Assembly: GCA_003819975.1 (NCBI GenBank)
Contig: RPPU01000026.1
Location: 1 to 15,778, forward strand
Length of the DNA stretch: 15,778 nt
Origin: Desulfobacteraceae bacterium
GTDB taxonomy: Bacteria > Desulfobacterota > DSM-4660 > Desulfatiglandales > HGW-15
Reading direction: 5' to 3'
The notes under the pieces are model-generated. The model had not been told where the DNA came from and did not search any database. It saw only the letters and a program-made list of their open reading frames with translations. Shown here piece after piece: positions 2,900 through 15,778 of the stretch (position 1 is its first letter; each line of letters begins with the position of its first letter). The position numbers and the translations under genes are program-made.

Positions 2900-3001
2900 G
2901 ATGCGCTGGCCGGCCGGGCGGGTTCGGGCGCGGAAAATAATGACCTTCCTTACGTCGGGAATTCTGTCACTGATTTGATTGCGAATATTAAATATGTTCG
3001 T

Positions 3002-3031
3002 TTGTCGAGAACCCTCCCGATCGATTATAAT
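3002..3031 (+). promoter_or_regulatory. Orphan promoter left in front of the split tRNA-Leu 5' half
   Basis: TTGTCG (3002-3007), an 18-bp spacer and a perfect TATAAT (3026-3031) lie 21 nt before the tRNA-like 5' half at 3053. The right-hand copy before the intact tRNA has the same layout. This is probably the original chromosomal tRNA promoter, now firing into the island. Confidence 0.6.
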
Positions 3032-3051
3032 TCAAAAGATGAATTCCTTAG

Positions 3052-3094
3052 GGCCGGGGTGGCGGAATTGGCAGACGCAAGGGACTTAAAATCC
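3052..3094 (+). other. Attachment site: intact 5' half of tRNA-Leu(UAA)
   Basis: Forty-three bases are identical to 13298-13340, which is one base of leader plus the first 42 nt of the complete tRNA-Leu. The match covers the acceptor 5' strand, D arm, anticodon 5' stem (AGGGA), the full CTTAAAA loop and three bases of the 3' stem (TCC). At 3095 the sequence leaves the tRNA for the element's left end. No variable loop, T arm or acceptor 3' strand follows, so no tRNA can be made from it. This marks the left boundary of the island. Confidence 0.88.
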
Positions 3095-3230
3095 GATCAG
3101 GACGATTAAAACTTTCCCCTTATTTCCCCTGATAATCCTTATATATCAATGAGTTTCTTTTGTTTTTTTGTTCCGTTGTTTGCCGTTGTTGTCCGTTGTT
3201 TACCGCATAAATAAACACAAATTGAACACA
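3095..3230 (+). repeat. Left-end repeat of the elements, copy 1
   Basis: Aligns almost base for base with 9106-9230. Shared blocks are GATCAGGA-GATT, TTTCCCCTGAT-ATCCTTATA, ATCAATGAGTTTCTTTTG, and the CCGTTGTT repeats, ending around CACAAATT. Both copies start immediately after the tRNA-derived segment, as expected for one arm of an integrase attachment site. Small frames on either strand here do not look like genes. Confidence 0.8.
3173..3200 (+). repeat. Three CCGTTGTT repeats at exact 10-bp period
   Basis: CCGTTGTT occurs at 3173-3180, 3183-3190 and 3193-3200, so each copy falls on the same face of the helix. The equivalent place in element 2 keeps two copies. They lie 79-106 bp inside the tRNA junction, a reasonable position for integrase arm-type sites or accessory-protein sites. 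Confidence 0.7.
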
Positions 3231-3309
3231 TCGGAGATCTAACTTCTGTTTTAACGCTCTAGTTTTTATATCGAGGTCGATATCCTTCGATTCTACTTAT
3301 AACGTATAG

Positions 3310-3411
3310 AATCAGAGGGGTAGGCGGAGGCGTCTCGGTACGCCTGAAGGCTACAAGGACGTGACCAAGGCCGAATCTTGGAACATCGGCGTGATAAAGC
3401 TCGTCCGGTAA
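3310..3411 (+). pseudogene. Probable remnant of the C-terminus of a lost gene
   Basis: Between two AT-rich stretches is a GC-richer patch with an open frame of 33 codons ending in TAA at 3409-3411. Its last 20 codons read as ordinary protein, GYKDVTKAESWNIGVIKLVR. The frame has no start codon and is closed upstream by TAG at 3307. It looks like the tail of a backbone-like gene captured or left behind in the element. I do not recognise the family. The rest of 3231-3789 holds nothing else I can support. Confidence 0.3.
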
Positions 3412-3789
3412 GTAATTATTCAGAAGCCATGAGTGAATTGAGAAATATCCAATCACGTTTAGGCGCGTCTGTAATGGGCTATCAAGGACAGATCATCGTG
3501 ATAATACCATTCTGAGATATCTTCGTTGTCCGGATTGGGAATGATAATTGGCGATAATTGGAACATATTTTGATAAAAACTATCGCGTTGAACTTCATCA
3601 AAAAAATCGAGTATATGTCTGTATTTGACTTTACTCGATGGTCGACGTATATTCATAATCAAGTTTATGGGAATAAGCAAATCGAGAGTTGTTTTGGGAA
3701 AAAAGTCTGTCATTTTGGGTCGTTTTTTTTTAATCCATCAGGCTGAGCAACCTCGTGTTTGTCGGATCTGATAAAAAAGGAGGAGGAAT

Positions 3790-5076
3790 ATGAGACTCGC
3801 GATTAATTCTTTTTTTGTGTTTTTATTTCTTACTAATCATGCTTTTTCTCAAGCTCCTTCTCAAGCAAAATGGACGATAATGGTCTATTTAAACGCCGAT
3901 AACAATTTAGAAGAATGTGGAATATGGGATTTCGACGAAATCGCTAAAGTTGGAAGCACTTCCGAAGTTAACGTCATTGTGCAGATGGATCGAATCGGGA
4001 AATATTGTGTAACTTCCCCTCAATGGACGCAGACGTTGCGTTTCCGAGTCACAAAAGGAATGAAAGCTATTCCCAAAAATGCATCGAAGGACCTTGGAGA
4101 AGTCAATATGGGTTTAGGGGATAGCCTTCGTGATTTTGTGCGATATTGTCAGTTTAATTACCGGGCTGACCATTATTTTTTGATTATTTGGGATCATGGA
4201 CAAGGGTATAGGGGTATCGGGAGCGAGAAAAGATTCAATTTCCGTAGCACTTCAACCGTTCCTTTTAAAAGCGTGTCAAACGATGAGACGGATAAAGATA
4301 AACTTTATAACCGTGAAATCCAAGACGCCCTCAATAATCCCGCCGACCCTATTACAAAGCTTGATGTAATCGGATTTGATGCTTGTCTCATGGCTATGGT
4401 CGAAACGGCGTATGCGATGCGTGATGCTTCGAAATATATGGTGGCAAGCGAAGAAATTGAGTCGGGATATGGGTGGGATTATACGAGATGGCTGGGAAAA
4501 ATTATCGGAAATCCGAACATGACTGATGAAGAAGCGGCCAAGCAGACTGTAGATTCTTATCGCGAAGCATGTGAGTCGATTCAGGGATCGACTTATTCAG
4601 CGATTGATTTATCAAAAATATCTCTAATAGCTTCGCAAATAAGCGAGTTAGCCGATGCTTTATCAGAGAAAATTGACGATAGCTCTCATTTAATCGAGGC
4701 AGCAAGAAAAAAATGTAAGGAGTTCGCACCGGAAGGCTTTGGCAACAGGAAAGATTATTTCCGTCATATAGATCTTGGATATTTCTGCGAGATGATTGCC
4801 GATTTAAATATATCTCCGATAGTTACGAATCAAGCTAAAATATTAAGAAAAACTCTGGCGTCTACCGTGATTTCCTGTTATGCGCATGAGAGCAGAACAA
4901 AAGGATGGGGTTCTTATGGTCTCGCGATTTATTTTCCCAAAGGAAACGATGATTATATAAATGATCGTTTTACCGAAAAAGGATACGAGCAGGAAAATAC
5001 TCTTTTTCCGGTAGAATTTGTCCAAAAATATCATTGGGATGAATTCCTTCATAGCTATTGGAGGAAAATTAAATGA
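3790..5076 (+). CDS. Exported clostripain-family cysteine peptidase (C11)
   Basis: The product has 428 residues with a Sec signal peptide (about 1-20, cleavage near AFS-QAPS). Peptidase C11 hallmarks are in order: KWTIMVYLNADNNLE (27-41), FLIIWDHGQGYRG (130-142) with catalytic His136, and DVIGFDACLMAMVETAYAM (192-210) with catalytic Cys199, followed by VASEEIESGYGWDY, which is conserved after the nucleophile. C11 enzymes are clan CD peptidases that usually cut after Arg or Lys and often self-process. It should act outside the cytoplasm. Start chosen for AAGGAGGAGG at 3777-3786. It is first in a same-strand cluster; its stop is 9 nt before the caspase-like gene. The AT-rich codon use differs from the backbone. 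I see no convincing promoter, though 3700-3770 includes a run of T. Confidence 0.9.
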   Translation: MRLAINSFFVFLFLTNHAFSQAPSQAKWTIMVYLNADNNLEECGIWDFDEIAKVGSTSEVNVIVQMDRIGKYCVTSPQWTQTLRFRVTKGMKAIPKNASKDLGEVNMGLGDSLRDFVRYCQFNYRADHYFLIIWDHGQGYRGIGSEKRFNFRSTSTVPFKSVSNDETDKDKLYNREIQDALNNPADPITKLDVIGFDACLMAMVETAYAMRDASKYMVASEEIESGYGWDYTRWLGKIIGNPNMTDEEAAKQTVDSYREACESIQGSTYSAIDLSKISLIASQISELADALSEKIDDSSHLIEAARKKCKEFAPEGFGNRKDYFRHIDLGYFCEMIADLNISPIVTNQAKILRKTLASTVISCYAHESRTKGWGSYGLAIYFPKGNDDYINDRFTEKGYEQENTLFPVEFVQKYHWDEFLHSYWRKIK

Positions 5077-5099
5077 GAGAAGACCTTGTTAAAGATTAA
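5073..5099 (+). other. Eight-codon mini-ORF on the best ribosome site before the caspase-like gene
   Basis: GGAGG (5060-5064) is ideally placed for the ATG at 5073, which overlaps the C11 stop as ATGA. That frame reads MREDLVKD and stops at 5097-5099. The caspase-like frame is shifted relative to it and opens with TTG at 5086. Either this is a coupling leader, or a one-base indel near 5085 separated the true ATG from the gene. Confidence 0.4.
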
Positions 5100-6237
5100 A
5101 TCCGTTGTTATCGCTTTTGAATGTCTTTTTGTCGCCTCGTTTGCCAATATTCGATTGTTTTCCCAAACGATTGGTCTTCCGACTGCTTTAGTCATAGGTA
5201 ATAAAGAATATCCTTCTTTTCCATTGTCAACGACAGTTCAAGACGCTGTCGATTTTGGAGCCGCTTTAAAAGTACTTGGTTGGGATGTTGAAACAAAAAT
5301 TGATCTTACTTTAAAGGAAATGAAGGATTTAATAGGTAAGTTTGCTGATAAATCGGAAGACAGCTCCGAAATCTTATTTTATTATGCAGGCCATGCGGTT
5401 CAGCTGAATGGAGAAAATTATCTGGTTCCTGTAGATGCAACTTTTGAAAGTGCCGAAGAAATCCCGCAAATTACGATAAGCCTTCGGGATATATTTGATT
5501 CATTGAAAGGAGAGGGCGCGAAAATTGTCATTCTGGATGCCTGCCGAAACAATCCCTTTAGATCCGGGCGAGGGCGAATTTTACCGATAGAAGGAGAATG
5601 GATTCCGGGCTTGGCTCCTCCCTCAGGAGCGACTGATAACACACTTATCGCCTATGCAACGGATCCGGGAAAGGAAGCCGCCGACCCAACTCTATCGTTC
5701 GAGCATTCATACTACACTTGGGCGCTATTGCAGAACATGCAAGAACCCGGTCTGGAAGTACGTGATCTGTTCAGCCGGGTGCGCGAGATCGTCAGGACAA
5801 GTACGCAAAGACACCAAACGCCTTGGGAAAACGTATCCCTTTTGAATAAGAAAATATATTTTAGAAAACCGGCGACGGTACGAATATCGGTTCCGGACAG
5901 GGATGATTTTGTTGTATGCTTTTTGAACGGCGAAGAAATATTCTCCGCCCAATTGGACGATCCAATCCCTTCAGGGGAAGTGCCTTTAAAAAGCGGCGAA
6001 AACAAGTTTGTGATCAAGGTTTATAATCAAAAAACATATAGGAATCAAAATCCATTTCTTGGACGTGAAGGATGGAAATATAAAGTCATTCTTTCTCAGG
6101 ACGATAGCCCGGAACCGTTGAAGATCTTTGAAGGAAGGGAAGATAATCCGCCGGAATCACGATGGGGCCGTTTTTTTACCGTAGCAACGGCCGTTATTTA
6201 CGTGGACCCAAAGACGGGCAAAATATCGATTTTTTGA
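5086..6237 (+). CDS. Exported caspase-like peptidase (C14, metacaspase type)
   Basis: The product has 383 residues. A hydrophobic signal segment (about 8-26) is followed by a p20 caspase fold: ALVIGNKEYPSFPL (34-47), AVDFGAALKVLGWDVE, then FYYAGHAVQLNGENYLVPVDA (98-118) with catalytic His103, and KIVILDACRNNPF (146-158) with catalytic Cys153. NTLIAYATDPGKEA is the usual next block. Residues about 262-383 form a beta-rich tail with no sign of a transmembrane helix. Most bacterial C14 proteins are cytoplasmic or fused to sensors; here a signal peptide puts it outside the cytoplasm beside a C11 peptidase. The only in-frame start is TTG at 5086; an out-of-frame ATG at 5073 has the better ribosome site, so a frameshift or coupling is possible. 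The catalytic pair is intact. Confidence 0.87.
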   Translation: MLKIKSVVIAFECLFVASFANIRLFSQTIGLPTALVIGNKEYPSFPLSTTVQDAVDFGAALKVLGWDVETKIDLTLKEMKDLIGKFADKSEDSSEILFYYAGHAVQLNGENYLVPVDATFESAEEIPQITISLRDIFDSLKGEGAKIVILDACRNNPFRSGRGRILPIEGEWIPGLAPPSGATDNTLIAYATDPGKEAADPTLSFEHSYYTWALLQNMQEPGLEVRDLFSRVREIVRTSTQRHQTPWENVSLLNKKIYFRKPATVRISVPDRDDFVVCFLNGEEIFSAQLDDPIPSGEVPLKSGENKFVIKVYNQKTYRNQNPFLGREGWKYKVILSQDDSPEPLKIFEGREDNPPESRWGRFFTVATAVIYVDPKTGKISIF

Positions 6238-6245
6238 AAATAAAT

Positions 6246-6320
6246 ATGAAGATCAATATTGACCAAAAAGTATTGGGGATGGAGAATCAAATAAATCTGG
6301 TTCAAGGGGGAGAAAAATGA
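6246..6320 (+). CDS. Possible 24-aa ORF coupled to the 767-aa gene
   Basis: ATG at 6246 opens 24 codons that stop at 6318-6320, overlapping the next start as ATGA. The peptide contains INIDQKVLGMENQINLVQGG, resembling the short Q-x-x-x-G-x-x-N-Q-x-x-x-x-GG beta segments seen at the start of some caspase-associated and effector-type proteins. It has no Shine-Dalgarno sequence, and part of it is simply the ribosome site (AAGGGGGAG) of the next gene. It may be a coupling peptide, a gene remnant or chance. Confidence 0.25.
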   Translation: MKINIDQKVLGMENQINLVQGGEK

Positions 6321-8620
6321 AAATATCAATGGGCAAGATTTCTTTCTTTATTGTTGTCGTATTGTGGGTGATGATTGGATTTTCTATAACGGCTGAAAAA
6401 CAGCAAAATGTCGGTTCGGTCCACGTCGCCGTTATAGGTGTTGCCAGATGGTCGGATGTCGCCTCACAGTTGCAGCCAAAGTTCATATTTACTGAAGAAA
6501 ACGCTTTATCCAAAGCTATTCCTACGACTTTAGCCCAATACCAGGAATTGCTGGATTCGATCAAAATCGCTTTAAGACTTGCCCCGCCCACCTCGGCGAC
6601 GACGAGCGAAGAAATGATTTCAAAAAAAGATTCCGGGGAAGAAAGCAAAACAAGTCAATCGACAGCCGAAAAGAAAGCCGGCGATGTTTCCCAGACGACG
6701 CAAATTTCTGCGACCGCGGCTACCCGCTTGTATGATAAGCCTCCCTTTACGGCGGCCGCATCCGTATATGATCCGATTATGGTGTATCAAAACGCCCTTA
6801 CTTTATATCAATTGGTCGCTTTGCTTAATAGGTCGATTAAGGATGCGGCGCTGAGAGAAGGATATGATCCATATATCGTCACTCTACAAATAACTCTCAT
6901 GCCATATTCCCATGATCTTAAATATGATGCTTATAGCACTATATCATTTTTTTCGGGAAGCAAAATGGAAGGTGCGGCCACACCAACTAAAGTTGAATCA
7001 GATTCTAATAATTATAATAGCTTTGTGGAATATATACTTCAATGGGCGCTTAAACAACCATATAATGATATTAAGACATTAAAGGAAGAAATAGAAAAAA
7101 CCGAATTTTTTAAGATTACATATTCTAAGGAAAATAAAGAAAATAAGGCTAATGAACTTGCCATAAAATTATATGAAATGTATAAAAATAAGCTTCGTAA
7201 TTTACTAGGCGGGAAGAGTTGTCAAAATCCTTTTATCCTACCTCTTCTCGCGACGGATAACCTGGAAGCCGGATCAGATGTTCGCTGTGTAAATGAAATT
7301 CGTCAATTAAGCCTTGCTCTTGTCGCTCTTGTGCAGGGATTCGGCGCATCGGCCGGAATTGATAAAACAAAACAGTTTATGAGCTCCGTCGCTGGAAACG
7401 ACCTAAACAGTTTGCTAACGTTAGGGCGACTGTCGGACAACACGATACAAGCCCGATTGGGGGCGATGTTGCAGCCGAATAAAAACAATTTCTCAATGGT
7501 TCCCAGAACCCATAATATCTCTCTTCTTGTAATGGCCCCAAAAACGGGTCTTAATTCCAATACTACAAACCCTTCGATAGAAATTAAGTCCATAAGGGCT
7601 ATTTCGAGAACAATTTTCCGAGATACCAAAACCGGCGATATGCTGAATACTCGAACGGAACGCATTATTAACAATAATTTATTGAGAATATTAAATTCCT
7701 ATAATATCATTATTCCCACAGACGAATCTGTAAATAAGATATGTCAAACTCTGTTAAACTCTGTTCAAGAAAATGATTATGATTTATTTGTACAAGTTTT
7801 GAACTTTCAATTTAATGCAAAAAATATAGATTTATCTTATGAATCACTATGGGTCGATCTCGCCAGTTTGTGGATCGGCGGCCAATATACGCAGATCACA
7901 TTTGATCTTCCGAGTCGGCTGCAAATAGAATGGCCGGACATGAAGCAATGGCTCATATGTAATGATGATATGAAAACGAAAATGACAGTCCTGCTTAAAG
8001 GAGGAAATAATATATTTGGAGAAGATTTAAAAAATGCATCCTTAGAGATTAAATTGCCGAAAAAAGAAGAACCGCCCGCGAAAAATAATGGCTCAGAAGA
8101 AGCGATCGTTATCTATGCCGATTCCATCGAAATATTGAACCAATCGAATATTCTGATCGCCTTTCCAACGCTGAAAACATTTGGTGATTATGAAAATGGG
8201 AAACTAGTGGGCTTTAAATTAAATCTGAATAATTCAATGGCTTCTCCTCATAAATTCGAAAATCTTTTCCTTAATAAGCTGACGGCAGCGGCGGAACCTC
8301 CAACGCCGAAGCCGAATTATATTCGGTCCATACAAACATACATTTTATCGGATAAAGGAGATGGATGGATTGATATTATTATTAGCAAAATACCTAATAA
8401 TAAATTATTTATAAAAAATACTAATGCGGTTTTAAAATCTTCAAATCCAAGTGGTATTATTGATAATGGGAAAGAGGGATTATATCTAATATTAAAGGAA
8501 GGGCAAGTGAGATTGAATTATGAAAATATGATACCAGGAACGAAGATTAAAATCGAAATTGTCGACGAGAAAAAAGCCGTAATTGAAAGTTACGAATATC
8601 CCGTTATTCAAAAAGTATGA
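6317..8620 (+). CDS. Large exported protein of unknown function in the peptidase cluster
   Basis: The product has 767 residues and starts with a signal peptide or N-terminal anchor (hydrophobic 8-24). After VGSVHVAVIGVARWSDV (32-48) comes a Ser/Thr/Lys/Glu-rich linker (about 93-135), a helical region with YDPIMVYQNALTLYQLVALL (151-170), a strand block YDPYIVTLQITLMPYSHD (183-200), another Lys/Glu-rich helix (about 250-295), then LPLLATDNLEAGSD, DLNSLLTLGRLSDNTIQARL and VPRTHNISLLVMAP (395-408). The last ~120 residues look beta-rich. I do not recognise the family. No enzymatic motif is visible; the Lys/Arg-rich linkers could be cleavage targets for the neighbouring peptidases, which is speculation. 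Start chosen for AAGGGGGAG just upstream; the gap after the caspase-like gene is 79 nt. Its stop is the last coding feature of element 1. Confidence 0.8.
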   Translation: MKISMGKISFFIVVVLWVMIGFSITAEKQQNVGSVHVAVIGVARWSDVASQLQPKFIFTEENALSKAIPTTLAQYQELLDSIKIALRLAPPTSATTSEEMISKKDSGEESKTSQSTAEKKAGDVSQTTQISATAATRLYDKPPFTAAASVYDPIMVYQNALTLYQLVALLNRSIKDAALREGYDPYIVTLQITLMPYSHDLKYDAYSTISFFSGSKMEGAATPTKVESDSNNYNSFVEYILQWALKQPYNDIKTLKEEIEKTEFFKITYSKENKENKANELAIKLYEMYKNKLRNLLGGKSCQNPFILPLLATDNLEAGSDVRCVNEIRQLSLALVALVQGFGASAGIDKTKQFMSSVAGNDLNSLLTLGRLSDNTIQARLGAMLQPNKNNFSMVPRTHNISLLVMAPKTGLNSNTTNPSIEIKSIRAISRTIFRDTKTGDMLNTRTERIINNNLLRILNSYNIIIPTDESVNKICQTLLNSVQENDYDLFVQVLNFQFNAKNIDLSYESLWVDLASLWIGGQYTQITFDLPSRLQIEWPDMKQWLICNDDMKTKMTVLLKGGNNIFGEDLKNASLEIKLPKKEEPPAKNNGSEEAIVIYADSIEILNQSNILIAFPTLKTFGDYENGKLVGFKLNLNNSMASPHKFENLFLNKLTAAAEPPTPKPNYIRSIQTYILSDKGDGWIDIIISKIPNNKLFIKNTNAVLKSSNPSGIIDNGKEGLYLILKEGQVRLNYENMIPGTKIKIEIVDEKKAVIESYEYPVIQKV

Positions 8621-8836
8621 ATTTGGTTCGAAATATAAATTGGTATCTATAGATAATGACCAACTGGCTGCCGGAAGTGAGGGGAGGGGTTCCGCTCATG
8701 GTGTTCCCGTCTCGGGATGTCCCGGGGAGATAATAAATAACGACTCTGATTCCGACGTCCCGCCGAATAAGATCGCCACTTGCAAGTGACGGGGTCCTGT
8801 CAATAAATATTCGCAATTTCGGGGCCATCGCAATTT
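8621..8836. other. Non-coding stretch after the peptidase cluster
   Basis: I see no supported gene here. There is a perfect 12-bp palindrome, CACTTGCAAGTG, at 8777-8788 and a short inverted repeat CGGGA-TG-TCCCG near 8713-8725. Neither is followed by a T run, so I cannot call an intrinsic terminator. Confidence 0.4.
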
Positions 8837-8956
8837 TCATAAGTTAGCAGCGTGCGCCATAACGAGCTCCAAAGAACCGAGGACTTTGCCTACGCGGATG
8901 TAATTTCGTTCCGTATCCCAGTCTTCGGAATACTCAATCAGATAACAAGAAGGGCC
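8837..8956 (-). pseudogene. Remnant of the C-terminus of an unrecognised gene
   Basis: On the minus strand 39 codons read as convincing protein, with LIEYSEDWDTERNYIRVGKV followed by LGSLELVMAHAANL, ending in TGA at 8839-8837. The frame begins directly after an in-frame stop at 8957-8959, and the only ATG is near the end, so it is a fragment. The patch is GC-richer than its surroundings, like the one at 3310-3411 at the other end of element 1. Confidence 0.35.
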
Positions 8957-8970
8957 TTATAATGCGTTTG

Positions 8971-9073
8971 AGCCATCTGAGTATAAATCCTCCTCTCTTT
9001 TGGTTGGAAGATCGAAGAGAGTTTGCGATGGCTCCTCCTTTAATCCAAATTGCGAACGTCACTGTACACTACC
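8971..9073 (+). repeat. Right-end repeat of the elements, copy 1
   Basis: Aligns with 13091-13192 with gaps. Shared blocks are AGCCATC, CTCTTTTG-TTGGAA-AT, CGATG-CCTCC and GAAC-T-ACTGTACA-TACC. After TACC, copy 2 continues through ~105 bp with a promoter into the full tRNA, whereas this copy jumps straight into the decayed tRNA segment at 9074. Confidence 0.68.
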
Positions 9074-9105
9074 CGGAATTGGCAGACGTAAGGTACATAA
9101 AATTC
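9074..9105 (+). other. Decayed middle copy of the tRNA-Leu 5' half
   Basis: Thirty-two bases match tRNA positions 11-42 (13309-13340) with four substitutions, at the 16th, 21st, 24th and 31st bases of the segment. The first ten tRNA bases and the promoter seen at the right-hand copy are missing. It lies exactly between a right-end repeat and a left-end repeat, so it is the junction of two tandem elements. Confidence 0.85.
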
Positions 9106-9230
9106 GATCAGGATGATTGAAAATTTCCCTGATTTCCCCTGATTATCCTTATAGATCAATGAGTTTCTTTTGTTTTTGTGTTCCGTTGTTGTCCGTTGTT
9201 TACTCCTTGAATATTCACAAATTATGCACA
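9106..9230 (+). repeat. Left-end repeat of the elements, copy 2
   Basis: Counterpart of 3095-3230. It carries two CCGTTGTT copies at 10-bp spacing (9183-9190, 9193-9200) where copy 1 has three, which accounts for most of the length difference. Confidence 0.8.
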
Positions 9231-9241
9231 CTATAAGAGCC

Positions 9242-9270
9242 TTGAATTCATTATTTTAATCGGCTAATAT
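9242..9270 (+). promoter_or_regulatory. Possible promoter giving a leaderless mRNA
   Basis: TTGAAT (9242-9247), a 17-bp spacer and TAATAT (9265-9270) end 7 nt before the ATG at 9278. Transcription would start at or next to the A of the start codon. The ATG has no Shine-Dalgarno sequence, and an in-frame stop at 9257-9259 excludes a longer start. The AT-rich context makes chance matches common. Confidence 0.4.
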
Positions 9271-9277
9271 TGCTTTT

Positions 9278-12200
9278 ATGAGGGAGCGTAAGTGGGTAGC
9301 AGCATATCAGCTTAACCTTTGGGCTGAAACAACTAATGCTAAGACACTATTTCCCGAGCTTATACGTCGCTTGGCTCATGCTACGGTGGAACAGGTCGAT
9401 CTAGAAAGCGTAGATTTTCCATCTGGCGAGGAAATTCACCGCCCTGGCTACGATGGCGTGACCGTTTCGAAACGTGGAAACGCTTGGGTTCCTGTTGGGA
9501 TGACTTATTGGGAGTTGGGAACAGATAAATATGTGGAGGGCAAACTTAATAAAGATTATAACAAACGGATTAAAGATCGTGGCCAAGGCGATTTTAGAGA
9601 AACAACTTTCATTTCGATTACGCCACATGACTTTACAAAAAAAAGAAAATGGGTAGAAGCGAAAAATAAACTCGGACACTGGCGAGAAGTCCGTATCTAT
9701 GATTCAGATAATTTGGAACAATGGCTAGAGAATGCTCCTGGTGTCGCTTTATGGCTCAGGGCGCATATGTCAATCCTGCCCGATGGTTTAGCCGACTTAT
9801 CTTCTCATTGGGACAATATCCAAGACAGTTTAAGAAAAAAATTACCTCCGGCAGCTCTCCTAGTTACTCGGCAAAATATGATCGAATCGTTCAAGGAATG
9901 GTTAAATAGGCAACCACAAGCATTAATTGTTCAAGGACATTCACCCCAAGAGGTCGTAGATGTATTTACGGCTTGGGTGGAATCGCTTCCCAAAATCGAA
10001 CAGGATATAATTGCTAGCCGTACAATTATAATTGAAAACGCAAAAGAAGGCCGCGCCCTTATCGATTCTGAACAACGTTTAATTCTAATTTGCGGGGAGC
10101 GATCAGGCCTTGACCAAACGTTTGTAGGAGAAGCACGCCGAAAGGGCCATCATATATTGATTCCGGTTTCTTCGATCTGGTCACAAGGAAACGAAATAGT
10201 TCGCCTAGATCGTATGAATCGAGTCGAGCTCGAGAAGATCTTAGCCGAAGCCGGATTAACTGAACAGGAGGCTTATTCGCTAGCCCATCAATCAGGTGGA
10301 TCTTTTACGGTCCTTAAGCGTCGATTTTCTTCAGTTCCAATTATTGAATCGCCAAAATGGGGAGAAGGTACGGAAGCTATCGAAATAGCTCCACTTCTTC
10401 TAGCTGGTTCATGGAAAGAAAGTATTTCTGCTGATCAAGTTATTATTAGCAAGATTGCCGGTCGTCCCTATAATGAAGTGTGGGGAATAGTAAATCGGTT
10501 GAGATATGAAGATGATGCGCCTGTGAGGTGGATAAATGGTATTTGGGAATTTATATCTCCTCTCGATGCATGGACTTTTCTTAGCACATCGATAAGTCCA
10601 GCGCAGTTGGATTTATTTGGAGATGCGGCGAAAGATGTACTCGGAGTAAATGACCCGCGGCTCGAATTGTCACCAGAGGAACGATGGCAAGCCTCATTTT
10701 TAGGAAAAAGATTTGATCATTCAAACGAGCTTCGCAATGGCATTGCTCAAACTTTAGCATTGCTCGCGACACAAGATGTTTCCGCACAAATCGCTGACAC
10801 GATGCCATTACAGATTCGTGTGAATCGTATTGTAGCGGAAATATTACCCGAGAACGCAGATTGGCGGAGATGGGCTTCTCTTGGAGGGCTGCTCCCCCTT
10901 ATCGCCGAAGCGGCGCCAGAAATATTTCTCACTGCGGTCGAATATGGTCTACGCGGAGACCAACCAGAACTTGCAAAGCTTTTTATTGATGAATATGGTG
11001 CCATAGGACAGTCAGAACATACTGGTCTGCTTTGGGCTTTAGAGCGATTAGCATGGTCGCCCGATTTCCTTCCTCGCGTATCTGTTTCATTGGCAAGACT
11101 TGCCGAGTGCGATCCTGGTGGGAAAATTGCTAACCGGCCTCAATCGAGTCTTCGAGATATATTTTTTTCGTGGATGCCTCACACCGCGGCTCCCCTTGAA
11201 CAGAGAATAGATATTCTCAAGTTATTATTATCCCGACATCACCTTATTGGATGGAAGCTGTTGCTGTCTTTGCTCCCCCACGGCGCTGAGAGCATCCTAG
11301 ATAATCCTACGCCCGAATGGAGGTTTTGGGCGGAGGGATGGAATCGTGGTGTTTCGGTCAAAGAGTATTTACTTTTTGTCCAAGCGATGATCCAATTGGC
11401 GACATCCACAGCAATAAAAGTACCTGAGAGATGGATAGATCTTATAGATTATTTAATCTTTATTCCTCGAGAAGACACAGAATCCGTGCTTGAAGGCCTT
11501 GAAAGCACAACTAAAGCTGATCTTGCGGTTGATTTACAAAAAAGGCTTTGGGATGGGCTTCGAGAAGAAATACGAAAAATCCAATATCACTCTGATACAA
11601 AGTGGGCGCTACCACAACATATCATAATCCGCCTTGAAACGATTCGGGACAGCCTCCAACCACAAGACGCTATCGATTTGGCTATTCCCCTCTTTAAAAA
11701 AGGATTTGATCATGTTTTCGATAAATCGCTCTCTTGGGAGCAAAATGAGAAAATTCGATGGCAAAATCGAGAAGATGCTATTAGGGCTATTATAAAAAGC
11801 CACGGATTTGATAGCATAATCAATCTCGTACAAAATGTCCAAAAAGATTGGGATGTTGGTGTTGCCTTCGTTAAAGCGACTGGTCCGGAATATCTGGCGT
11901 ATGTTCTCCCGGCTTTGTTATGTCACCCTGAAGAATCAGTTGCTAATTTCGCTGGCGCGTATGCGACCAATCTTATTGGGATATCTGGTCGCGATTGGGC
12001 TGAGAGCCTTCCCTTAGTTGGATGGAAAACTGCCGAAGTAGTTAAGTTCATTATTAGAATGCCTTTTGATAATAGAACTTGGGATTATATTAAACGTTTT
12101 GGCTCGACGATAGAAGATGATTATTGGCGACAGACGAATTATCTTACTTTAAGGCTTTCTCCAGGTGAAATAGAACGCGCATGTCGAAAACTCATTACAG

Positions 12201-13072
12201 TTGGTAGGCCAATATCGGCAATTGAATTGCTCGCAATGGAAGCGCCTACAATAGATAGCTTCGCTCCAAATGTTATACTCGATATCCTCGAAATTGCGCT
12301 AGCCGCGCCTCTAAAGGAGAAAGAAAATTTAATTGATAGGTATCATATTCTGGAATTGCTTGAACGACTCCAGAAAGCAACAGATGTGGATGAAACTAAG
12401 CTCGCCCGGCTTGAATGGCTTTTATTGCCCTTAATCGAATGCTACCATTATTTTCCAGCTACCTTACACAAAAGGATATCGGGAGATCCCGATTTCTTTA
12501 TTGAACTACTAACGGCGATTTATAAACCTCATCATCGAGATATTGATGAAGAGAAAAATCAAACTGATAATGAGAACGATGAAATAAATCGACTTCAATC
12601 AGAGCGTGCGTGGAAATTGCTAAATGAATGGCGTCAGATACCGGGAATGAAAGGTGATGGCAAGCTCGGTCGGCGAGAATTAAAAGAATGGATTAAATCG
12701 GTGAGAGATAAAGCGGCCGAATTGGATAGAAAGGAAGTGTGTGATATTACGCTCGGGGGAGTATTTGCTTTTTCTCCGAATGAAGAAGATGGAAGTTGGC
12801 CATGTATTCCTATTCGGGAAATTATTGAAGATGCCGAGTCGTCTGAACTCGAAAGAGGATTTGCTATTGGTATCGCAAACAAAAGAGGAATTTTCTCGAA
12901 AGCAATAGGGGAAGGCGGACAGCAGGAACGAGCATTAGCAGAAAAATATGATGCTTATGCAAAATCATGCCTTAGCAGTCATCCCAGGACTGCATCCATT
13001 TTATTGAAAGTTGCTAAAGACTACAAAATCGAAGCGAAGAGTGAAGATGAAAGAGCAAAGGTAGACAAATAA
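9278..13072 (+). CDS. Putative antiviral-type protein: nuclease-like N-terminus, degenerate NTPase, helical repeats
   Basis: The product has 1264 residues and no signal peptide, so it is cytoplasmic. Residues about 1-165 form a compact domain with RPGYDG (55-60), VPVGMTYWELGTD (71-83), a basic segment GKLNKDYNKR (88-97), FISITPHDF (111-119) and DSDNLEQWLENAPGVALWL (142-160). Asp59, Glu79 and Lys92/Lys96 could be a PD-(D/E)XK nuclease centre with a migrated lysine. Residues about 190-350 are laid out like a STAND/NACHT NTPase, but the Walker A position reads ALIVQGHSPQEVVDVF (215-230), with no GKT/S. Then come hydrophobic strands (RLILICGE, HHILIPVS) and a winged-helix-like part. The rest is helical repeats, with a conserved-looking C-terminus (DGSWPCIPIREIIED, ELERGFAIGIANKRGIFS, QERALAEKYDAYA). 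The protein seems full-length. Large proteins of this kind are widespread and mostly unnamed; a defence role is inference. There is no Shine-Dalgarno sequence. Confidence 0.8.
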   Translation: MRERKWVAAYQLNLWAETTNAKTLFPELIRRLAHATVEQVDLESVDFPSGEEIHRPGYDGVTVSKRGNAWVPVGMTYWELGTDKYVEGKLNKDYNKRIKDRGQGDFRETTFISITPHDFTKKRKWVEAKNKLGHWREVRIYDSDNLEQWLENAPGVALWLRAHMSILPDGLADLSSHWDNIQDSLRKKLPPAALLVTRQNMIESFKEWLNRQPQALIVQGHSPQEVVDVFTAWVESLPKIEQDIIASRTIIIENAKEGRALIDSEQRLILICGERSGLDQTFVGEARRKGHHILIPVSSIWSQGNEIVRLDRMNRVELEKILAEAGLTEQEAYSLAHQSGGSFTVLKRRFSSVPIIESPKWGEGTEAIEIAPLLLAGSWKESISADQVIISKIAGRPYNEVWGIVNRLRYEDDAPVRWINGIWEFISPLDAWTFLSTSISPAQLDLFGDAAKDVLGVNDPRLELSPEERWQASFLGKRFDHSNELRNGIAQTLALLATQDVSAQIADTMPLQIRVNRIVAEILPENADWRRWASLGGLLPLIAEAAPEIFLTAVEYGLRGDQPELAKLFIDEYGAIGQSEHTGLLWALERLAWSPDFLPRVSVSLARLAECDPGGKIANRPQSSLRDIFFSWMPHTAAPLEQRIDILKLLLSRHHLIGWKLLLSLLPHGAESILDNPTPEWRFWAEGWNRGVSVKEYLLFVQAMIQLATSTAIKVPERWIDLIDYLIFIPREDTESVLEGLESTTKADLAVDLQKRLWDGLREEIRKIQYHSDTKWALPQHIIIRLETIRDSLQPQDAIDLAIPLFKKGFDHVFDKSLSWEQNEKIRWQNREDAIRAIIKSHGFDSIINLVQNVQKDWDVGVAFVKATGPEYLAYVLPALLCHPEESVANFAGAYATNLIGISGRDWAESLPLVGWKTAEVVKFIIRMPFDNRTWDYIKRFGSTIEDDYWRQTNYLTLRLSPGEIERACRKLITVGRPISAIELLAMEAPTIDSFAPNVILDILEIALAAPLKEKENLIDRYHILELLERLQKATDVDETKLARLEWLLLPLIECYHYFPATLHKRISGDPDFFIELLTAIYKPHHRDIDEEKNQTDNENDEINRLQSERAWKLLNEWRQIPGMKGDGKLGRRELKEWIKSVRDKAAELDRKEVCDITLGGVFAFSPNEEDGSWPCIPIREIIEDAESSELERGFAIGIANKRGIFSKAIGEGGQQERALAEKYDAYAKSCLSSHPRTASILLKVAKDYKIEAKSEDERAKVDK

Positions 13073-13090
13073 CTACGAAGCTAAATAATA

Positions 13091-13192
13091 GAAGCCATCG
13101 AAAACTCTTTTGATTGGAAAATATCGAGAGGAAGATTTTTACAACGATGACCTCCCTTCTATTCCATAATGTGAACATTACTGTACAATACC
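13091..13192 (+). repeat. Right-end repeat of the elements, copy 2
   Basis: Counterpart of 8971-9073, starting 19 nt after the stop of the large gene. Short frames through here are not credible genes. The region 13193-13245 that follows holds nothing I recognise. Confidence 0.68.
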
Positions 13193-13245
13193 GATCTTCG
13201 AACGGATCAACGATAGCAAGAAAATCTTGTGAAGATATCCCATCG

Positions 13246-13275
13246 TTGCGGGCGCCGCTTTCAATAGATTATAAT
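13246..13275 (+). promoter_or_regulatory. Element-borne promoter of the reconstituted tRNA-Leu
   Basis: TTGCGG (13246-13251), an 18-bp spacer and TATAAT (13270-13275) end 23 nt before the tRNA. Spacing and the GATTATAAT core match the orphan promoter at 3002-3031, but the flanking bases differ, so it is not a simple recent copy. Confidence 0.6.
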
Positions 13276-13298
13276 CCCCCGTGTTCTTTCTGCTTCAG

Positions 13299-13384
13299 GC
13301 CGGGGTGGCGGAATTGGCAGACGCAAGGGACTTAAAATCCCTCGGGGTGAAAGCCCTGTACGGGTTCGATTCCCGTCCCCGGCA
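13299..13384 (+). tRNA. tRNA-Leu(UAA)
   Basis: A full 86-nt cloverleaf. The acceptor stem GCCGGGG pairs with CCCCGGC (13377-13383), with A as discriminator base. The D arm has AATTGGCAGAC and the anticodon stem is AGGGA/TCCCT around the loop CTTAAAA, giving anticodon TAA at 13333-13335. A long type-II variable arm (CGGGGTGAAAGCCCTG) identifies leucine, and the T arm is CGGGTTCGATTCCCG. CCA is not encoded. A T-rich stretch follows. Its first 42 nt are the segment duplicated at both element junctions, so the 5' half and promoter came with element 2 and only the 3' half is certain to be original. Confidence 0.96.
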
Positions 13385-13404
13385 GATTTTTTAGTCGGTT
13401 ATTT

Positions 13405-13656
13405 TTAGATCCCTTGGCGGGGGCCGAAAGAGTAAAGAGTTATTGATCCTTTTTCCCATTGATAAACGAGGCGCCGCGCTTGCCCGCGGACGGAATAGGC
13501 GTATGATCGCAAATCGTTGAGCTCGCCTCTGAGCTTTTTCCCGATTTCCGGACGATCGCGAACGTCGAGAATGGCCGCTTTCAACTCTTCACGCTCGTCC
13601 TCATCCCTGACTTTCTTTCGGAGATGGGCGAACTTGGCGGTTTCGAGGAGGATCAT
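13405..13656 (-). CDS. RelE/ParE-family toxin of a type II toxin-antitoxin pair
   Basis: The product has 83 residues. The closing blocks LRSYAYSVRGQARRLVYQWEKG and SITLYSFGPRQGI follow the RelE/ParE pattern of a strand with R-S-Y-x-Y, then R-R-L-V-Y, and a last strand ending in F-G-P-R. Preceding helices (AKFAHLRKKV, REELKAAILDV) complete the small alpha/beta fold. RelE members cut mRNA on the ribosome and ParE members poison gyrase; the sequence alone does not say which. The ATG overlaps the antitoxin stop (ATGA, 13653-13656), so translation is coupled and the antitoxin comes first. Codon use is GC-rich, like the backbone, so the pair may predate or be independent of the island. The stop lies 21 bp from the tRNA 3' end. 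Confidence 0.8.
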   Translation of the reverse strand: MILLETAKFAHLRKKVRDEDEREELKAAILDVRDRPEIGKKLRGELNDLRSYAYSVRGQARRLVYQWEKGSITLYSFGPRQGI

Positions 13657-13880
13657 AGATCGTCGGGATCGAGCGCCGAAACGCGCTTGGCCTTGGCGTC
13701 GAGCCGGGCTTCAAGGATATCCTTGATTTCCCGTACGGTAAGGTCGGGATTCTCCAGGGCGATGAGGCCGATGCGCGTGGCATACCGGACGGTGTTCGAA
13801 AAATCCCGCTGGTCTTTTTCGGCGAACCGGTTCACTTCATAAAGAAGGTGCTTGTCCATGACGATGGTCTTTCTGATCAT
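13653..13880 (-). CDS. Ribbon-helix-helix antitoxin
   Basis: The product has 75 residues. MIRKTIVMDKHLLYEVNRFA is a typical RHH beta strand followed by helix 1, and DFSNTVRYATRIGLIAL is helix 2 with a D-x-S-N-T-V-R capping motif. The C-terminal part, from TVREIKDILEARLDA to the stop, would wrap the toxin. Antitoxins of this class bind as dimers to repeats in their own promoter and neutralise the RelE/ParE partner. Start chosen for GGAG (13890-13887 on the minus strand), six bases before the ATG. An operator candidate sits directly upstream. Confidence 0.8.
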   Translation of the reverse strand: MIRKTIVMDKHLLYEVNRFAEKDQRDFSNTVRYATRIGLIALENPDLTVREIKDILEARLDAKAKRVSALDPDDL

Positions 13881-13890
13881 GACTTACTCC

Positions 13891-13926
13891 ATATGATAAT
13901 ATATGATAAAAGCGTACTTGTGTCAA
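13891..13926 (-). promoter_or_regulatory. Promoter and likely autoregulatory operator of the toxin-antitoxin pair
   Basis: On the minus strand there is a perfect TTGACA (13926-13921), a 17-bp spacer and TATATT (13903-13898), placing the start of transcription about 11 nt before the antitoxin ATG. Overlapping the -10 are two ATATGATA repeats (plus strand 13891-13898 and 13901-13908) at exact 10-bp spacing, the usual operator layout for an RHH repressor. Confidence 0.7.
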
Positions 13927-13954
13927 CAACGTATTCGTTGAATTTTCGACCGGA

Positions 13955-14638
13955 ATGCGGTTTAATGACCGCTTGATGAATCATCCGCCGCGACGCTTCG
14001 CCCCCGGTTGCGCTCTGATCCTTTATAAGCCTCATCTCGTCGAAAAGCTCCGCCAATTCCTCCGGCCGATTCTAAGCGCCGACGAGGTTTGGACGAGATG
14101 CTGCCGGAAAGATCCGGGATTCGGCGCCGATACCGAGCTCATCAACGTCTGTCCGGGCTGCGACAAGCGGTTCCGGCTGGATTACCCGCTGACGCGGACG
14201 GTATCCGTTTGGAAGATCCTGGCCGAGAGCGAGGATTTCCCTTTTCCCGATTATGGCGGGCGGAAGATGTCCATCATCGACGCCTGTCCGACCCGGGATC
14301 AGCCGCGGATTCACGAGGCCGTCCGGACGCTCCTTGGGCGGATGAGCATCGCGATCGTCGAGCCGAAGGCGACCCGGACGAAGGGCGTCTGCTGCGGCGA
14401 TTCCTTTTGGGGAGAGATTCCCACGGGCGAGGTCACGGACTGGATGAAAAAGCGCGCGGCCCAGCTTCCGGCCGATGAGGTCGCGGTTTATTGCGTGTCG
14501 TGCGCCGTCGCCTCGGGGATCGGAGGGAAAAAGCCGCGCTACCTCGTCGACCTTCTTTTCGGCGAGGAAACGCGGCCGCCGACTTCAGACCTGGATGCCT
14601 GGCACGCCGCGCTCCAAGCGCATATCGACGCCAGCTGA
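13955..14638 (+). CDS. CCG-domain Fe-S (cysteine-rich) protein
   Basis: The product has 227 residues with two cysteine-rich motifs of the CCG type found in heterodisulfide reductase subunit B, GlpC and LutA-like proteins. The first is CCRKDPGFG (Cys49, Cys50) with CPGC (Cys66, Cys69), the second GVCCGDSFWG (Cys146, Cys147) with CVSC (Cys180, Cys183). Such paired motifs bind Fe-S clusters and take part in electron transfer. No signal peptide or membrane segment is visible, so it is cytoplasmic or a subunit. The start is uncertain: neither the ATG at 13955 nor the one at 13976 (MNHPPRRFAPGCA) has a clear Shine-Dalgarno sequence, and the later one gives the more typical N-terminus. It is a stand-alone gene, divergent from the toxin-antitoxin pair and convergent with the next gene. 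Confidence 0.85.
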   Translation: MRFNDRLMNHPPRRFAPGCALILYKPHLVEKLRQFLRPILSADEVWTRCCRKDPGFGADTELINVCPGCDKRFRLDYPLTRTVSVWKILAESEDFPFPDYGGRKMSIIDACPTRDQPRIHEAVRTLLGRMSIAIVEPKATRTKGVCCGDSFWGEIPTGEVTDWMKKRAAQLPADEVAVYCVSCAVASGIGGKKPRYLVDLLFGEETRPPTSDLDAWHAALQAHIDAS

Positions 14639-14646
14639 ATTTTGAC

Positions 14647-15777
14647 TTACTTGATCACGGCCGCGGCTCGGCGGATCAGCGAGTCGGGTCCGATCCAGTC
14701 AAGGAACGAGTATTCCGCCTTGTAAGCCCTGAGGATGTCATCCCGGACCATATCATCGGCGCTTTTCCCGGCCTCGCGATTCTTCCGGACGATCGCGATC
14801 ATCGCGGCCAGGTCGTCGCGGTACTTTTTCAAGCCGGTCTTCGTCAGATCGGGGCCGTGACCGCCGGCAAACGTCGTTCCGTCCGGGAAGGCGGCCAGGA
14901 CGTTGTCCAGAAAGCCCAGATAAACGATGGGATCTGGGACGGCCGGGCACGTCCCGGCCAGCAGCAAGTCGCCCAGGCAAAGCACCTTCGACTTCGGGAA
15001 GTACACGAGAATATCCTCCGGAGAATGAAGGCCGGGGTTGGGAATGATCTGGATCGTTTCGCCGTTGAACGGCAGGAGGAACGGCGCCCCCAGCTCCCGG
15101 TCTCCGTCTTTCCAGAAGGGCTTATCGCTTCGGGACATCCGGTCCTTGAATTCCTGGCCGTCGAGATTCTTGAAGTTGATGACGTTGGCCTCGGCCGGGG
15201 CGACAGCGTTCGCGTCCACGTGGTCGCCGTGAGAATGCGAGTTGATGAGATACCTGATGTCTCCCGAAGCCAGCCGGCCGATCGTCTTTCTCAGCTCGGG
15301 CACGGCCAGCTTGGTGAATCCCGAATCGAGGAGGAGGATTCCCTCCGGGCCGGAAAAGACGATGACGTTGTTTCTCATCCCCCAAGGATAAGCGATCCGA
15401 TGGAGGGCGGGAGCGAGTCGGAAGGTTTCGAATGTCAGCAGGGTGGGTTCCGCTCCCTTGGATTTCAAGTAGGCGATGATCTCCGCGTTCCCGATTTCCA
15501 GGGCCATGTCCAGCGGTTTCCCGGAATATTTCGCCACGGCGTTGACGTCGGCGCCTTTCTCGACGAGAAGCCTGACCAGGGAGAGGGGTAAATCGTTGCT
15601 GCAGGCCACATGGAGCGCGGCTGTATGGAAATTGTCCTGGGCGTTCACGTCCGCCCCTTTGGCGAGCAAATACTCCGCCACCTCCGCCCGGTTGTAACCG
15701 ACGCCGATATAGAGAGGCCGCCGACCGCCTAGGTCCGCGGCTTTAACGGCCTGAGGATCCTTTTCGACCAATTCTTT
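14647..15777 (-). CDS. Ankyrin-repeat protein fused to a metallo-beta-lactamase fold, 5' end outside the window
   Basis: The visible 376 residues begin outside the window; TTG at 15771 is internal. Ankyrin repeats come first (RPLYIGVGYNRAEVAEYLLA, ALHVACSNDLPLSLVRLLVE, GADVNA twice, then KPLDMALEIGNAEIIAYLKS). A metallo-beta-lactamase fold follows, with the metal-binding SHSHGDHVDAN motif (H-x-H-x-D-H, near visible residue 181), PNPGLHSPEDI supplying the third histidine, CLGDLLLAG (bridging Asp) and GGHGPD (last His). The metal ligands look complete, so it is likely an active zinc hydrolase. The substrate cannot be told. The repeats may present a partner protein. It ends facing the CCG gene, with 8 nt between stops. 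Confidence 0.85.
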   Translation of the reverse strand, partial: KELVEKDPQAVKAADLGGRRPLYIGVGYNRAEVAEYLLAKGADVNAQDNFHTAALHVACSNDLPLSLVRLLVEKGADVNAVAKYSGKPLDMALEIGNAEIIAYLKSKGAEPTLLTFETFRLAPALHRIAYPWGMRNNVIVFSGPEGILLLDSGFTKLAVPELRKTIGRLASGDIRYLINSHSHGDHVDANAVAPAEANVINFKNLDGQEFKDRMSRSDKPFWKDGDRELGAPFLLPFNGETIQIIPNPGLHSPEDILVYFPKSKVLCLGDLLLAGTCPAVPDPIVYLGFLDNVLAAFPDGTTFAGGHGPDLTKTGLKKYRDDLAAMIAIVRKNREAGKSADDMVRDDILRAYKAEYSFLDWIGPDSLIRRAAAVIK

Positions 15778-15778
15778 G

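Follow-up and report, generated by a model that had tools for sequence, protein, structure and literature searches.

A 15,778-nt stretch of contig RPPU01000026.1 from a Desulfobacteraceae bacterium (hereafter the window) carries, at positions 3095-13340, what are probably two integrative elements in tandem at a gene for tRNA-Leu(UAA). We consider it likely that these elements—unit A, about 6.0 kb, and unit B, about 4.2 kb—share one family of attachment (att) sites, that they now lack an integrase, and that they arrived together in one composite integration. The array is of a known kind, tandem tRNA-targeted elements; what is unusual is its 5'-half configuration, the failure to find an integrase in either unit, and its cargo.

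ARAGORN calls one tRNA in the window, Leu(taa) at 13299-13384, which Rfam also recognizes (RF00005, 59.3 bits), and two copies of its 5' half lie upstream in the orientation of the gene (+ strand). The left copy (3052-3094) is identical to 13298-13340 at 43 of 43 positions; the identity starts at base -1, spans nt 1-42, and ends after nt 42, in the 3' strand of the anticodon stem. In the middle copy (9074-9105), nt 1-10 are missing, and what remains agrees with tRNA nt 11-42 at 28 of 32 positions. For comparison, the next best site for nt 11-42 on the + strand reaches 19/32, the best reverse-strand site 18/32, and the best match in 60 mononucleotide shuffles of the window 21/32. The left copy is thus an end fragment (nt 1-42) and the middle copy an internal one (nt 11-42). 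Joining 2900-3094 to 13341-13500 restores an intact tRNA-Leu(taa), the predicted empty site, and fusing the middle half to the tRNA 3' half gave no tRNA call. A preliminary description of this DNA, made from the sequence alone, had reported the 5' half as intact on the left, decayed in the middle, and complete in the gene at 13299, as these alignments bear out.

Outside the tRNA, the ends of the two units also correspond. With the tRNA core included, 3063-3223 aligns with 9074-9223 at 133 of 161 columns (score 187; 500 dinucleotide shuffles, mean 20.3, maximum 29); without it, 3095-3223 aligns with 9106-9223 at 105 of 129 columns (score 143; maximum of 300 shuffles, 29). The right ends, 8995-9073 and 13105-13192, agree at 65 of 90 columns with 13 gap positions (score 47; 500 dinucleotide shuffles, mean 19.1, maximum 30). 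This match ends at 13192, 106 bp short of the tRNA gene, and at the middle junction it directly abuts the tRNA-like core. The junction alignment therefore confirms three copies of the tRNA half and two homologous pairs of ends. Where the preliminary description called the ends of each pair the same, their homology holds, far above shuffles for both pairs, and their sameness does not, with about 81-83% of columns identical on the left and 72% on the right.

Between these ends the cargo differs, as had been claimed: unit A against unit B gave nothing above shuffles (score 33; 30 shuffles, mean 30.2, maximum 39). Base composition steps down in the array, from G+C fractions of 0.61 (1-1850) and 0.59 (13385-15778) in the flanks to 0.40 (unit A) and 0.43 (unit B) inside. 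The footprint of tRNA-targeted, site-specific integration with an AT-rich interior is supported. Coordinates are collected in Table 1.

Table 1. Features of the tandem array at tRNA-Leu(UAA), in window coordinates
Feature	Position	Strand	Evidence or reading
Sigma-70-like promoter, TTGTCG-18 nt-TATAAT	3002..3031	+	Ahead of the left tRNA 5' half; 10/12 matches
Intact tRNA-Leu(UAA) 5' half plus base -1	3052..3094	+	Read as the host half of the left unit's attL
Left arm (P') of unit A	3095..3230	+	3095-3223 homologous to 9106-9223; 10-bp direct repeats
Cargo A1, clostripain-family peptidase (Peptidase_C11)	3790..5076	+	PF03415, E=2.7e-55
Cargo A2, caspase-like peptidase (Peptidase_C14)	5086..6237	+	PF00656, E=1.3e-36; PADLOC caspase, 2.7e-9
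Cargo A3, 767-aa protein	6317..8620	+	No significant domain
Right arm (P) of unit A	8995..9073	+	65/90 columns identical to 13105-13192
Damaged tRNA 5'-half core (tRNA nt 11-42)	9074..9105	+	A/B junction; 28/32
Left arm (P') of unit B	9106..9230	+	Layout as in unit A, one CCGTTGTT unit fewer
Cargo B, 1264-aa protein, PHROG_18693	9278..13072	+	E=2.8e-182; uncharacterised family
Right arm (P) of unit B	13105..13192	+	Pairs with 8995-9073
Leader of the present tRNA gene	13193..13298	+	TATAAT 13270-13275, ending 23 nt before the gene
tRNA-Leu(UAA), complete	13299..13384	+	ARAGORN, RF00005; nt 1-42 read as element-donated, nt 43-86 as the original host 3' half

Each unit would consist of a P' arm with 10-bp direct repeats, cargo, and a P arm; in unit B the P arm would be followed by a leader with a promoter and by a 5' half that replaces the one of the tRNA. 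An integrase-type enzyme would have exchanged strands within the anticodon arm of tRNA-Leu(UAA), parting the host promoter and 5' half (3002-3094) from the host 3' half; with the leader and 5' half brought by the element, a working tRNA gene would have been rebuilt at 13193-13384. The two leaders are not homologous (score 19; shuffle mean 15.6, maximum 31), and the leader at 13193-13298 is absent from the A/B junction. Leaders that differ, together with an identity that stops at base -1, are as expected if the element donated both leader and half. We read the promoter at 3002-3031 as the probable original host leader; shuffled sequences give a mean of 0.6 sites like it, so by itself it is weak evidence. 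On the right, the putative promoter is identified from its TATAAT box alone, because the promoter scan listed only 13062-13089 and not the TATAAT at 13270-13275, presumably owing to a poor -35 element. We also considered a crossover in the D arm, where 15 nt are common to all three copies; it is less likely than one in the anticodon arm, since it would have A breaking the tRNA and B repairing it.

The preliminary description attributed both insertions to one integrase family. That attribution does not stand on more than the shared ends: no integrase or recombinase was found in the four main open reading frames (Pfam, NCBIfam, PADLOC, PHROGs) or, with Pfam, in 20 of the 56 intergenic frames of at least 25 aa, the other 36, mostly the shortest, lying outside the search. 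The only two Pfam matches among the small frames are of no account (E 0.15 and 0.2). The same frames yielded no excisionase or transfer gene in either unit, and no gene of an integrative and conjugative element (ICE) or integrative and mobilizable element (IME) was recognized within the window. The frames tested thus contain neither the element's own integrase that defines an ICE or IME nor the integrase inside the island that the Islander finder looks for; they do show the absence of integration and transfer genes that characterizes a cis-mobilizable element (CIME). Because no integrase was found in either unit, we describe A and B as a tandem of CIME-like, non-autonomous elements, which would now depend for their movement on an integrase encoded at another place in the cell.

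The same findings leave room for a fixed, dead remnant: an old array with no helper, its cargo kept for usefulness alone. The lack of a found integrase, the damaged middle core, and the diverged ends all speak for it. The left half still equals the gene's half over 43 nt, however, and the arms remain recognizable on both sides of both units; we regard a dead remnant as possible but lean against it. This alternative and the two orders of insertion taken up next are variants within the general reading and are not mutually exclusive.

The condition of the two tRNA halves bears on the order of events. The left half shows no changes in 42 positions, whereas the middle half shows 4 in 32 and is missing both its leader and nt 1-10 (Fisher p=0.03, a test on a small sample that assumes neutral decay). 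Because the orphan expected to be oldest, the left one, is perfect and the middle one is decayed, one recent integration of an A+B composite that already existed most likely fits the sequence better than two sequential insertions. This reading needs nothing extra to account for the decay pattern, and the same holds for entry of A into B's left attachment site with an imperfect core. A and B would have been joined beforehand, their internal att site would have decayed, and the last integration would have brought in both as one composite. The two sequential insertions of the preliminary description are accordingly not settled as to order; the difference in decay favors the composite, or else an imperfect core brought by A.

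If A had entered first and B had followed to its right at the rebuilt tRNA gene, with both later losing the integrase, the same ends around different cargo would follow naturally, tandem accretion is described for ICEs, IMEs, and CIMEs in the cited account (PMC5704250), and the middle half would be A's donation. Under this order the left half should be the oldest copy, yet it has 0/42 changes, and the younger middle half has 4/32 and lacks nt 1-10 and the leader, which makes this sequence of events unlikely. The reverse order, with B first at the tRNA and A later entering B's left attachment site with its own imperfect core and no promoter, accounts without any decay for a core after A's right arm that starts at nt 11 and carries mismatches. 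Element A would then be unable to enter a bare tRNA gene without destroying it and would depend on pre-existing elements, and we judge this order somewhat less likely again.

A more speculative account treats the units as integron-like cassettes on an essential tRNA gene, each made only of arms, cargo, and a replacement promoter with 5' half, none with an integrase of its own, and moved in trans by an integrase encoded elsewhere in genomes of the lineage. Each arrival would then re-equip the same tRNA-Leu, stacking accessory, possibly defence, genes; we hold this account to be improbable.

It is very improbable that no site-specific insertion took place and that the tRNA 5' half was instead duplicated locally, or the contig assembled as a chimera. 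Assemblers can be misled by identical 43-nt stretches, and there is one contig. Yet a duplication would have copied the leader too, and the leaders differ; nor would it produce ends outside the tRNA that match at distances of 6.0 and 4.2 kb. A second assembly of the region is suggested by the cargo B and DUF362 proteins, each found on 2 contigs, and by a contig of 15757 bases that encodes A3 with 100% identity in a 763-aa form.

Several observations weigh against the composite of two related elements that we favor. No integrase was found in either unit, one contig is the whole basis of the verdict, and a very short integrase remnant may lie in the 36 small frames outside the Pfam search. The P arm of A directly abuts tRNA nt 11, so A donates no usable 5' half now; this requires either that about 116 bp were deleted or that A lacked such a half from the start. 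The outer membrane protein (OMP) gene left of the array (1851-2899) has a G+C fraction of only 0.47, and the left composition boundary is therefore not sharp at 3095. Finally, patterns of the end motifs found 0, 2, 0, 0, and 0 stretches in five scans of viral contigs, the 2 being coding-sequence coincidences in open frames.

The arms themselves contain short direct repeats. Integrase arm-binding sites look like helical-turn-spaced repeats beside an attachment core. In the P' arm of unit A, the 10-bp TTTCCCCT occurs at 3113 and 3123 and the 10-bp CCGTTGTT at 3173, 3183, and 3193; unit B has CCGTTGTT at 9183 and 9193, one copy having been gained or lost relative to A. Judged from their sequence and spacing, these repeats are candidate integrase arm-binding sites. 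The motifs of the P'/P arms comprise the 10-bp CCGTTGTT repeats and ACTGTACANTACC. DNA searches with 3040-3260 returned 136 plasmid and 94 phage records, and the 40 matches listed span only query positions 3-64, which hold the tRNA half with about 10 nt of flank. The left end gave two weak, short matches (E 4.1e-4 and 7.4e-4; 21-31 nt) among 199 genomes of the phylum of a Bacillota metagenome-assembled genome (MAG).

The array can be placed among described systems. Of the 3919 islands counted for Islander, 3760 carry a 3' fragment and 159 a 5' fragment; the same source gives 2083 anticodon-centred sites and 125 tandems of at least two islands (PMC4383910). Set against 159 of 3919 islands, a 5' half restored by the element together with a new promoter is an uncommon configuration. 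Like the Islander 5'-fragment class as described there, the present locus has an intact tRNA gene (tDNA; 13299-13384) with a cognate 5' fragment upstream in shared orientation (3052-3094); unlike the listed islands, it has no found integrase, and since Islander drops candidates without one, it would be unlisted (PMC4383910).

CIMEs, elements without integration and transfer genes that keep their ends, and for which tandem accretion with ICEs and IMEs is described in a review (PMC5704250), resemble A and B in their retained attL/attR-like ends, their missing integration and transfer genes, and their accretion at one gene end. They differ in that our window holds no ICE or IME partner and that the site here is a tRNA 5' half, not the 3' end of a gene (PMC5704250). 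The ssrA islands of Dehalococcoides likewise stand in tandem at one RNA gene with direct repeats, and 15 of them without an integration module were suggested in the cited report to be possible CIMEs; unlike our units, they involve the serine recombinase DsiB, the 3' end of transfer-messenger RNA (tmRNA), and reductive dehalogenase cargo (PMC3146451).

The insertion at tRNA-Thr of Caldiarchaeum subterraneum also has a 5'-terminus tRNA fragment upstream of the complete gene, flanking the insertion; it differs, as reported, in encoding a putative recombinase, in being archaeal, and in its intron-bearing tRNA (PMC3293823). Tandem A/B also recalls tRNA-dependent lysogeny, in which integration is into a tRNA gene and the incoming element brings whatever is required for the host to retain the tRNA, except that those phages are described as carrying a whole second tRNA and an integrase (PMC10865867); here only a 5' half and its leader would be donated. 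Two further candidates were set aside. Tycheposons are described with a tyrosine recombinase (PMC10872708), and none was found in the frames tested here. For an integron cassette array, structured attC sites would be expected between cassettes; the four end regions fold as single-stranded DNA no better than shuffles (z -1.22 to 0.37).

The cargo of unit A comprises two peptidases and a large protein. The N termini of A1, A2, and A3 are signal-peptide-like by eye, and the clostripain-like protein, the caspase-like protein, and the large protein at 3790-8620 possibly form an exported protease system, as far as their sequences suggest. PADLOC found nothing in the unit A cargo beyond the caspase domain. 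Proteins of the A2 caspase type occur in 269 plasmid records, 0 of which cover 80%. A3 belongs to a family of at least 11 proteins, A3 included, among 8000 scored candidates; its structure model is poor (predicted local distance difference test, pLDDT, 63), and the plasmid search gave no match to it. Near both ends of unit A, 3301-3415 and 8652-8800 look by eye like gene fragments (e.g., the frame ending KDVTKAESWNIGVIKLVR) and may be scars left by gene loss or by earlier insertions; Pfam gave no match to the tested frames overlapping them.

The cargo of unit B is a single large protein. Its structure model, from which residues 451-1264 were left out, and its sequence point to a restriction-nuclease-like N domain followed by an AAA+/STAND-like (NTPase-like) fold without Walker A. 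D59, E79, and K89 of the N domain are invariant in 44 of 44 aligned proteins, and Walker A (GxxxxGK[ST]) occurs in 0 of the 44, so that the ATPase motif of Avs4-like proteins was not found; some relatives have a helix-turn-helix (HTH) domain (PF01381 or PF13560). Cargo B resembles an Avs-like sensor whose ATPase site is dead. The family is patchily distributed: 22 plasmid records, one phage record (21% over 51%), and no close relative in viral contigs. A tRNA is present in 1 of 10 neighbourhoods, drawn from 4 of 5 genomes and 6 of 22 plasmids.

In a genome of another phylum, a cargo-B relative (locus L025, 7123-11663) sits 0.4-0.7 kb past a tRNA-Met gene, with a tyrosine integrase (L025, 17423-18859; PF00589, 1.2e-22) some 6 kb further. 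About 26 kb from the tRNA (L026, 14051), a stretch of 17 nt repeats tRNA-Met nt 32-48 exactly, and the locus is possibly a tRNA island carrying the cargo B gene family; against this, the copy breaks off before the remainder of the tRNA 3' half.

Beyond the array, the DUF362 protein at 602-1825 had 509 matches; the closest of those listed reach 95%, and of the five named ones among 120 listed, four are from Candidatus Aminicenantes/Aminicenantales (best 72%) and one from Acidobacteriota; judged by these matches alone, the host would probably belong to the Aminicenantes. No DUF362 relative was found in 61 genomes of the Bacillota MAG's phylum, a search that had no positive control and carries little weight. 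A cysteine-rich protein (13955-14638) had two loci in the genome contig search, in the Bacillota MAG (54%) and in Selenomonas (25%). On the host side of the array, immediately downstream of the tRNA, 13405-13880 holds a ParE-like toxin gene (PF15781, 1e-11) preceded by a small gene that had no Pfam match and is, by position, a probable antitoxin.

Because at least one standard finder, Islander as described (PMC4383910), filters out tRNA islands without an integrase, arrays like this one have probably been counted too rarely. Should these ends turn up around further cargo in this lineage, tRNA-Leu(UAA), which the preliminary description proposed as a possible hotspot for rotating accessory systems, would be a place to look for accessory and defence genes of an uncultured group, and the question would become which trans-acting integrase serves those ends.

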